A stretch of 22,545 bases of DNA from a virus, in the IMG/VR virus record IMGVR_UViG_3300031841_002686, positions 1 to 22,545 of that record; one strand, 5' to 3'. The translations under genes and the position numbers were made by a program. Shown here piece by piece: positions 15,566 through 17,958 of this stretch. The first letter of the stretch is position 1; the number at the start of each line of letters is the position of its first letter. The notes beneath the pieces are model-generated. The model was not told where the DNA came from. It did no database searches and saw only the letters and a program-made list of their open reading frames with translations.

Positions 15566-17958
15566 TATTTGTTCCTATCTACAATCATCTTGGTAAGCAA
15601 ACCGCCCATCATTTGGTTTGCCGATTGTGGTTGCGGCAATACTAAGGATTGAACTTGTGGTGCCTGATAGTTAAGCCGTGACATGTAAGGCGTAAACATG
15701 CCTCTGCCGCCACCGCCGCCACCGCCGCCACCACCGCCTTCTTCTGGCTCTGGCTCTCCGCCGCCCGAAGGAACACATTCGCCAGTTTCTGGGTCTCGAA
15801 CAAAGCCTTCAGGACATTCTTCTTCAGGCTCTGGTTCTGGCTCAGGGCTTGGGCAGGGTGTGCTTGGATCTGTTGCTGTGCCATCAGGGCATTCAGAGCA
15901 AAGCGGCCAATCTAATGCACCATTCTCGCAAGTTTCTGGTTCTGGCTCAGGGCCTGGCTCATCAGCTATCCACGGATAACACTTACCATCTTTGCCTCTA
16001 ACAAACCCTCTAGGACACGGCTCTTCTTGATCCTCTTCTCCATCACCAGGCCCCGGCCCTGGCCCCGGCCCCGGAGCAGGCTCTGGCTCTGGTTCTGGTT
16101 CTGGTTCTGGTTCTGGCTCTGGTTCAGGCTCGGGCTCAGGCTCAGGCTCAGGCTCATCCTCTCTAAATGGGTAGCACCTGCCATCTTTGCCTCTAACAAA
16201 TCCTTTAGGGCATTGCACTTCTTCTTCACCATCATCAGGCCCGCCACCGTTATCTGGAGGAGCTGGCTCAGGCTCAGGGGCTGACTCAGGTTCAGGTTCA
16301 GGCTCGGGCTCAGGCTCCGGTTCCGGTTCCGGTTCCGGTTCTGGCTCCGGTTCTGGCTCCGGTTCAGGTTCCGGTTCAGGTTCTGGCTGAGAAACAATAC
16401 AGTTTCCGTCGGCATCATAAACGCCATCTTCGCCATCTTCTGTTCTGCAAGGATCGTCTTCTCTACGATCTATAGGCGGATCATCACATTCGCCAAGAAC
16501 TTCGTTATATACCCGATCATCTCCACAATCTATTACTTGCTCAACACACTCTAAACTTTCATTCGGAGTAAATCCGGGCAAACATCCGCCACAGTTACTA
16601 GGCCCAGTAGTTGGGCTGCCTTGCCTATGCGCTCTATTTTGTTCTCTACACTCTTCCGCTGTAGGGCCGGTATCTTCCCATTCAGGCTCTGGTTCCGGCT
16701 CGGGCTCCGACTCGGGCTCCGGCTCGGGTTCGGGTTCGGGTTCGGGTTCGGGTTCTGGCTCGGGTTCGGGTTCGGGTTCTGGAGCAGGCGCTTCTATGCA
16801 GTCGCCATTTTCATCAATTTTCCCAGGCTTATCATCATCAGTGGTGCATTCCGAACCTATAGGCGCTTTCTTTTCTGGTTCGCACCTTCCTGTTTGTTCA
16901 GAGAAAAAATACCCTTCTTTACATGGCCCGCAGCTTCCATCTTCATTAACGGTAGCATTAGGATCATTGCATTCTTGTGGTTGCTGCTGATCTGCTTGAG
17001 CACAATACTTTTCGTTGTCTTTTCTAAACTCATTATCTTCACAGCTTGCTGCAAGCAAAAATGGGTTGTCTATTTCTAATTCTTCTCTAACTCTATTAGC
17101 AACAAGAACTGAAAGCCAGGGGCCTAAAATATTTCTTAACTCTTCATCTAAATCGCCAATAGTCCAAGACCCGGCAGTTAAATCTCCCCATGCTTCCTTT
17201 ACAGCGTTTACTGCATCTTCTACTTGCCCTTCTATCCATGCTCCGGGGTCATCAAGAATGTCGCTAATACTTCCGCCAATTTCTTCAACTTTTTTAATAA
17301 TATCTCGAAGAGTGACTCCAGCAATTCCTGGGGGCATAGGAATATCTAAATCAATAAAATTCTCAAGCCATTCAAAAGTTATACAATCTTGCCAACCCGG
17401 ATAATCTTGCCCTGTCTCAGGATCGTATGATCTTCCCGACCATTTATCTTTTCCACAATCTCGGGAAACGCCAATGGCAGCTCTTGCCATGTCCATAATT
17501 GTGTCATAAACATCTTGAGGGGATGTTGGTATTGAGCTTCTTACTTCATTAAAAATATCTTTAACAACGTCAAAAACATCTTCAGTTATTTCTGCGCCTT
17601 CTTCTTGAAGATCAGAAAAAATTTGATCCCAATTAATTTCTGTTTCTTCGCTTTCGTCTTCTTCATTTTCTTGAGAAGCCAACCATTCTTCATAGCCGCC
17701 AGCATCGTTAATTTGGCTAATAAAAGCCGCCATTTGCTGAAGAGCCTCAATAGTTACTCCTGTTGCTAAAGAAATGTCAAAAGGGGCATCTGGATTCATC
17801 CTAATAGAGTTAGCCTCTAGGATTTCCTCCATAGTAGGATCAGCCCAAATAGCTCCTAGTTCAGATTGGCCTATGCCGCCTAACATGCTTTCAAGGCGCG
17901 ACCTAAGGGCATCTTCTTGTTCAAGATCTTCAAATTCTGGAGGTACGTAAATAGACAT
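15565..17958 (-). CDS. (Pro-Glu)n/Cys-module protein, about 797 aa, unknown function
   Basis: Residues 1 to about 300 form an acidic, mainly helical domain (start [20 protein letters not shown]). There follow at least eight short Cys-pair modules, the clearest being [16 protein letters not shown] and [16 protein letters not shown] (about residues 585-665), [16 protein letters not shown] near 717-732, [16 protein letters not shown] near 346-361 and [15 protein letters not shown] near 461-475. They are separated by three long PEPEPE tracts, a PGPG tract and a terminal Gly run. Each module would form a disulfide-closed loop in an oxidising compartment, so the protein is probably outside the cytoplasm or on the virion. 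The C-terminus is [20 protein letters not shown] plus a helix. No signal peptide is seen. It lies between holin-like and adaptor genes. Candidates are a stalk or adhesin on the virion, or a periplasm-spanning protein. Not identifiable further. Confidence 0.7.
16078..16155 (-). repeat. PE tract 3 (CCA-GAA and CCT-GAG hexamers)
   Basis: Hexamers encoding Pro-Glu are dominated by CCAGAA, followed by a CCTGAG block. Adjacent to a PGPG-coding run at about 16050-16075. Confidence 0.8.
16262..16389 (-). repeat. PE tract 2 (GAA-CCG hexamers)
   Basis: The longest run of Pro-Glu hexamers. The core uses GAACCG repeatedly, with mixed CCTGAG/CCTGAA units at both ends. Confidence 0.8.
16683..16790 (-). 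repeat. PE tract 1 (CCC-GAA hexamers)
   Basis: Pro-Glu hexamers are dominated by CCCGAA and CCCGAG. Proline codon choice differs from the other two tracts, implying separate expansions. Confidence 0.8.

Follow-up and report, generated by a model that had tools for sequence, protein, structure and literature searches.

The SD-repeat adhesins of staphylococci combine Ser-Asp repeats with an LPXTG wall anchor. The length of these repeats has been proposed to tune the position of the binding domain (PMC3324548). The Glu-Pro repeats of TonB form an extended polyproline II rod and the helical K-A-E/D repeats of TolA an alternative one, and chimeras show that spacers differing in form are exchangeable (PMC10666116). 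Procyclin (PARP) of Trypanosoma brucei carries Glu-Pro (EP) repeats with a repeat polymorphism that is used for typing (PMC4607141). In the Campylobacter phages CP220 and CPt10, a single plaque population contains repeats of mixed length, which was attributed to slip-strand mispairing, and the repeats were proposed as substrates for recombination (PMC2853527). The adaptor of phage SU10 docks the long tail fibres (PMC9509320). Within the open-access literature, we found no closer analogue of phage Pro-Glu (PE) tracts than the systems compared here.

The window that we analysed is a 22,545-base record of an uncultivated virus, whose minus strand bears a cluster of structural genes. The PE tracts lie in a gene at a position in this cluster that we call the slot. 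As judged from sequence, in uncultivated phages the slot gene is hypervariable and mosaic, keeps a conserved C-terminus and lies directly upstream of a conserved adaptor gene of the SU10 type. The PE repeats of the window are one instance of a slot in which relatives bear chemically different repeats, a point missed by an earlier note on this DNA. We assign a probability of roughly 0.65 to the reading in which a modular phage protein, probably associated with the virion, has the tracts as in-frame tandem-repeat linkers that are rewritten by local turnover of units and act as acidic spacers.

The slot gene and its Pro-Glu tracts

The slot gene begins with an ATG at 17958, and a reading of the junction showed that its stop overlaps the ATG of the adaptor gene (Table 1). 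We numbered the tracts in protein order; the short runs of three and four PE fall outside the interval covered by the earlier note (16078-16790). Small two-Cys modules separate the tracts and the shorter runs, and these are followed by poly-Gly and then by the C-terminal segment.

Table 1. Features of the slot gene and its neighbours, by position in the window
Feature	Position	Strand	Basis or remark
Slot gene, mosaic protein with PE tracts	15565..17958	(-)	797 aa; ORF list
N-terminal part; low-confidence model mostly helical	16999..17958	(-)	Alignment A2 of 13 sequences
PE tract 1, 12 PE, CCC-rich	16711..16782	(-)	Codon read-out
Tract 1 continuation, 4 PE after one Ser-Glu	16681..16704	(-)	Codon read-out
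PE tract 2, 17 PE, CCG/CCT	16285..16386	(-)	Codon read-out
Two-Cys module, 16 aa, between tracts 2 and 3	16165..16212	(-)	Translation
PE tract 3, 12 PE + P, CCT then CCA; short PG run next	16078..16152	(-)	Codon read-out
Two-Cys module, 16 aa, after tract 3	15970..16017	(-)	Translation
Short run, 3 PE	15934..15951	(-)	Codon read-out
Short run, 4 PE	15823..15846	(-)	Codon read-out
Two-Cys module, 16 aa	15769..15816	(-)	Translation
Poly-Gly hinge, 11 Gly	15706..15738	(-)	Read from sequence
Conserved C-terminal segment with GMFTP motif	15568..15705	(-)	C-termini of relatives and motif count
Adaptor gene, SU10_adaptor PF24175	14918..15565	(-)	55 bits, cut-off 27
Nozzle-like gene beside adaptor	13384..14910	(-)	Weak matches to phage structural proteins, PHROGs; name inferred from position
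114-aa gene just upstream of slot gene, phrog_2524, no assigned function	17962..18306	(-)	PHROGs
Tail-fibre gene with S74 chaperone, upstream, same strand as slot gene	18982..21486	(-)	PHROGs, Pfam

Two open frames that are not in phase with the PE gene, 16621-17079 on the plus strand and 15966-16436 on the minus strand, were rejected as by-products of the repeats (FGFG/RLGLRLG and SQNQNRNR-like), and the plus-strand open frames opposite the tracts, which mirror the repeats, were likewise rejected as genes. Elsewhere in the window, two 9-bp tandem repeats (5756-5790 and 5855-5891, with 3.9 and 4.1 copies) lie close together just past a small gene (5335-5757). Over the 8,059 bases compared, IMGVR_UViG_3300032086_002279 is another record with a sequence identical to that of the window, and it is not an independent sample.

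The first observation of the earlier note, that three tracts encode PE with different synonymous Pro codons, was confirmed: the observed chi-square among the three tracts was reached in 2 of 20,000 permutations. Glu codons were alike (9,411 of 20,000 permutations reached the observed value), and the hexamers differed (23 of 20,000). The coordinates and the codon descriptions given for the individual tracts were essentially right, with two adjustments. The first run of tract 1 is made up of CCC (9), CCA (2) and CCG (1), and tract 2 of CCG (7), CCT (6), CCA (3) and CCC (1), so that the "CCG" reported for the latter is a slight majority in a CCG/CCT mixture; the codons named for tract 3 run from CCT to CCA when read in protein order. 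CCC accounts for 9 of the 12 Pro codons in the first run of tract 1, versus 20 of the 111 counted in eight further genes on the minus strand (binomial 2.6e-5), and genome codon usage therefore does not account for tract 1. Adjoining hexamers were identical 14 times, versus 7.0 in within-tract shuffles (p=0.0027).

Outside the tracts, the N-terminal part has a conserved Cys in a GW[KQ]DC region and is modular across relatives (same alignment). Its structure model is of low confidence (pLDDT 65.7, pTM 0.41); a fold search with this model against viral and PDB libraries gave nothing at E <= 0.001, and a sequence profile of the same part had no match below 0.08 among PDB chains. A PHROGs scan of the slot protein returned 0 families, including no tail-fibre PHROG, and no membrane or lytic domain was recognised by the PHROGs and Pfam scans. 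Among 50,697 phage records, searched with BLAST, which masks low complexity, there was no homologue of the N-terminal part or of the whole protein; the adaptor likewise had no match among the phage records, nor did the whole window by megablast.

The slot in relatives and its place among structural genes

Relatives were collected by anchoring on the adaptor protein, which gave at least 80 loci in IMG/VR, of which the best 80 were kept. The slot gene of each was taken as the longest frame ending between -80 and +30 bases from the adaptor start, and frames of less than 30 aa were dropped (L008). Three loci (L090, L094 and L100) entered the slot set by a match to the C-terminal part and not by adjacency to an adaptor; they are included in the set used for counting repeats, which comprises 69 unique slot proteins with lengths of 200 aa or more. 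Genome contigs searched with the adaptor alignment yielded one short MAG contig (L101). The window adaptor is 84-93% identical to that of seven aligned relatives, and PF24175 also scored above its cut-off in all six relatives' records that were scanned. The gene before the adaptor is extremely variable.

Among the loci listed, 52 of the 69 slot proteins contain a peptide that is repeated exactly and in tandem at least five times, versus 1 of 215 other ORFs of those loci, and the remaining 17 are without exact repeats. The kinds of repeat in these 69 proteins are PE (31), GD (5), DTT (5), DP (4), GT (4), PVET (3) and AP (3), and further slot proteins have AERxKDAE arrays of helical appearance or a G-x-D stretch resembling collagen. 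In a quick tree of adaptors with 82 rows, 17 of which have partial slot genes and were left unlabelled, the main repeat class changes at least 15 times over the 65 labelled rows, with PE in several separate clades; repeat class thus partly follows the adaptor tree.

Some of these proteins deserve individual description. Very long charged arrays of the AERxKDAE type are present in the slot proteins at L038:321-4106, which has an (AP)n run too, and L053:1846-4725. The gene at L087:15616-19023, which is the same as that of L037, encodes a collagen-like G-x-D stretch and then a coiled-coil-like region; when the slot proteins of six relatives were compared with PHROGs, only this collagen-like version from L037 matched tail families (minor tail and tail fibre). 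In L100 (contig IMGVR_UViG_3300042892_002007), the frame that holds 3501-4070 is 1,285 aa long and contains a long array of two-Cys modules of approximately 25 aa, which resemble the modules between the window PE tracts and are without PE linkers.

The slot protein lies among structural genes and has a conserved C-terminus. In the relatives, terminase, portal, scaffold and capsid are followed, in this order, by fibre genes, a gene of 101-102 aa, a 114-aa gene, the slot gene and the adaptor, and in the window the nozzle-like gene comes next. In A-4L and Gjalp, which are distant cultured phages with related capsid proteins, tail tubular A directly follows the capsid gene, and for this reason the fibre and slot genes look like a cassette added in the window lineage. 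The position of the slot among fibre genes and adaptor, taken with the docking of fibres by the SU10 adaptor, favours a virion protein held by its C-terminus. We infer that the slot protein is carried in the virion, with the C-terminal segment as its likely docking end.

A short motif, GM[LFM] or more fully GM[LFM][TSDVEAN], lies within 60 aa of the C-terminus in 65 of the 69 listed slot proteins and within 60 aa of the N-terminus in 26 of the 49 complete ones, compared with 3 and 12, respectively, of 215 control ORFs, and it is possibly a shared docking or processing motif. GM[LFM] also occurs once each in the proteins of 604, 503 and 870 aa encoded past the nozzle-like gene (11340-13154, 9813-11324 and 7198-9810) and is absent from the adaptor, nozzle-like and fibre proteins of the window. 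This distribution lends some weight to a possible but doubtful alternative, in which the slot protein would be an internal ejection protein with acidic repeats that span the periplasm at genome entry, and not a displayed fibre or stalk. The Glu-Pro repeats of TonB and the helical rods of TolA span the periplasm (PMC10666116), and both PE and helical charged repeats are found in the slot. However, the motif is short, the slot gene adjoins fibre genes, and the protein has no recognised membrane or lytic domain.

In the preferred reading, the tracts are spacers in a probably virion-associated protein, in which they may serve as an adjustable stalk. The rise of a polyproline II helix is approximately 0.31 nm per residue, a value at which 52 PE pairs would span approximately 32 nm if they adopted that form.

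Turnover of the tracts

Turnover of both length and codons is concentrated in the tracts. The tract lengths come from metagenome assemblies, in which repeats can be mis-assembled, and close relatives differ in them by whole units. L090 and L005 are separated by six mismatches and one 6-bp indel, all in one PE tract, and by none in the 2,226 bp outside. Among the pairs listed, L014 and L023 are 99.9% identical elsewhere and are apart by 18 bp, or three hexamers, in the tract; L005/L007 and L046/L047 are each apart by one hexamer (6 bp); and L041/L042 have a difference of one 6-bp unit in a GT run and another in a GD run. Six loci with almost identical adaptor DNA (L076, L078, L079, L082, L083 and L084) have 30, 16, 13, 15, 10 and 10 PE in one tract. 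When ten close pairs, hand-picked and in some cases already known to differ in tracts, were pooled, the tracts (1,281 bp) had 40 mismatches and 9 indels, and the sequence outside them (18,709 bp) had 109 mismatches and 22 indels, 18 of these 22 stemming from L066/L069 alone. In-frame differences in repeat number among close relatives, as expected of length-variable dipeptide-repeat linkers, are thus found in this family.

The codon strings of the tracts change as well. Of the window 36-mers, 0 of 49 from tracts versus 149 of 671 from non-PE sequence were found in other listed loci, and the corresponding counts were 0 of 47 and 142 of 653 for L003 and 0 of 43 and 34 of 683 for L009; with window 24-mers, the contrast was weaker (16 of 61 versus 203 of 687). 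One 36-bp string from each window tract, compared with the whole viral_contigs collection, was found only in the contig identical to the window. Because tract 36-mers are unshared and those of the remaining sequence shared, we regard the tract codon strings as private and recent. The proposal of the earlier note that the tracts underwent recent, separate expansions and may vary in length is upheld by these comparisons, which show changes that keep the frame and include contraction; invariant lengths and codons across relatives were searched for and did not appear. Two of its arguments need narrower wording. The codon differences show independent recent turnover of the tracts and not their independent origin, and the expectation that a copied tract would have identical codons applies to recent copies and not generally, because codon strings turn over fast even beside flanks that are kept.

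The hexamer had been named as the unit of change, which holds in part. Across 58 unique tracts (59 in a second unit analysis, to which one locus was added), hexamers two apart (12 bp) were identical in excess (z=8.4), and hexamers one apart (6 bp) were not (z=1.0). The 12-bp excess remained (z=4.2) in 30 flank-distinct tracts taken without the three perfect arrays of L060, L074 and L013; those of L060 and L074 are 12-bp arrays of 15 and 11 PE, respectively. The window gene itself shows both units, with copy-model weights of 0.30 at 6 bp and 0.17 at 12 bp. Slippage by hexamers only was consequently rejected as a family-wide account in favour of mixed 6/12-bp units. A 42-bp unit called in tract 2 by a repeat finder was also set aside, lag-7 hexamer identity being at chance.

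Nor are tract-specific codons the rule that they had been taken for. Among 14 genes with at least two runs of at least eight PE, only the window gene (0 of 3,000) retained them after correction for 28 tests; L012 (16, Pro), L017 (20, Glu) and L032 (46, Glu) were nominal only. Since the earlier reader chose the window gene for this very property, it may lie at the far end of a range.

A mechanism consistent with the preferred reading can be outlined. Slippage or unequal exchange would rewrite each tract locally, in whole units of 6 bp and, more often across the family, of 12 bp, and we infer that replication slippage is the cause of the change. Selection would retain Pro-Glu as third codon positions drift, and in this way each tract would gain its own codon pattern. 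The modules flanking the tracts may be swapped between relatives, often at tracts, with the conserved C-terminus and its Gly hinge holding the protein, and the extended acidic PE spacers would set the reach between the small Cys modules and the N-terminal part.

It could instead be argued that the tracts are neutral filler, inflated by slippage and with no selection on length. The range of 10 to 30 PE at one site in relatives with nearly identical adaptors, and the slot proteins that are without exact repeats, are in keeping with this view. However, Pro-Glu is kept as codons drift: in ten hand-picked close or related pairs, 178 of 208 substitutions in tracts were synonymous, versus 385 of 875 outside, an excess that follows in part from the definition of tracts as PE runs. 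Together with the concentration of repeats in slot proteins relative to other ORFs, this makes neutral filler unlikely.

The mosaic structure of the gene raises another alternative, that the tracts were imported along with modules by recombination from donors that each had their own codon pattern, so that little local expansion was needed. The window N-terminal part is 91% like that of L003, yet the surroundings of tract 1 instead resemble those of L010 and L014, and flanks switch partners at tracts. Among pairs with like flanks upstream of a tract, 56 of 99 were also alike downstream (0.57), versus 261 of 320 (0.82) at control points; in the reverse direction the difference was smaller (35 of 53, or 0.66, versus 283 of 394, or 0.72). 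Because the flank pairs are not independent, these figures are suggestive only: exchange of flanks appears to be moderately commoner at tracts than at control points, and tracts may promote exchange or may merely mark the ends of modules. As a source of the codon patterns, import is nonetheless improbable, given that the window tract 36-mers were shared with none of the other listed loci, that the 36-bp string taken from each tract recurred in viral_contigs only in the contig identical to the window, and that L010 and L014 differ in their tract-3 codons despite like flanks. Finally, every relative is a metagenome contig and tracts of 27-32 PE (162-192 bp) approach short-read length, but collapsed or chimeric short-read repeats are a very unlikely source of the length and codon differences, because the same tracts recur in contigs from different records (L014/L023 and L078/L081), the differences are whole units that keep the frame, codon strings and not lengths alone differ, and the runs in the window, at 72-102 bp, fall below the usual read length.

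A broader proposal, which we put forward tentatively, goes beyond the local turnover of PE tracts. The slot may be a dedicated spacer-evolving locus, in which the docking end is kept and the rod is rebuilt from unlike repeats (Pro-Glu, Pro-Val-Glu-Thr, Ala-Pro, helical Ala-Glu-Arg-Lys-Asp, collagen-like, Gly-Asp and Asp-Thr-Thr), with length tuned by slippage and the repeats serving as joints for the shuffling of small binding modules.

Comparison with known repeat linkers

If the spacer reading is true, physical reach would be a quickly adjustable trait of these phages. The relatives provide a natural linker series, with 10 to 30 Pro-Glu pairs in nearly identical surroundings, for probing the effects of linker length, and the recurrence of unrelated repeat peptides at one genomic position offers a test of whether the form of the spacer, or only its length and charge, is selected.

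Several matches of the slot protein to models of known repeat proteins (PARP, TonB, ClfB and SslE) were rejected as compositional and far under their cut-offs. Procyclin is a eukaryotic surface protein, and the slot protein matches its model through composition (PF05887, 31.7 bits versus a cut-off of 100). The repeats of CP220 and CPt10 are mostly extragenic units of approximately 75 bp, whereas the slot tracts are coding linkers. Phage tail-fibre proteins with collagen-like or other repeats also place repeat rods in structural genes, and the L037 slot protein matches such PHROGs; the window slot protein, unlike these fibres, matches no PHROGs family. With TonB and TolA the likeness is physical, in that repeats comparable to both kinds of rod occur in the slot, although the slot protein has no TonB domain (NF008084, 19.8 bits versus a cut-off of 315).

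The SD repeats of ClfA/ClfB and Sdr, like the slot tracts, are acidic dipeptide repeats that form a length-variable linker, and their in-frame length changes are attributed to slippage (PMC3324548). The slot tracts differ in belonging to a phage gene, in consisting of Pro-Glu and not Ser-Asp, and in having units of 6/12 bp and not 18 bp. The slot protein has no LPXTG, its C-terminus ending in MIVDRNK, and its score against the NCBIfam ClfB model is 16.1 bits versus a cut-off of 999. By the curated cut-offs tested it thus belongs to none of the families compared, yet it would appear to work like SD-repeat linkers. By analogy, the staphylococcal SD-repeat stalks seem to be the closest counterpart of the slot tracts, and the rods of TonB and TolA their closest physical one.
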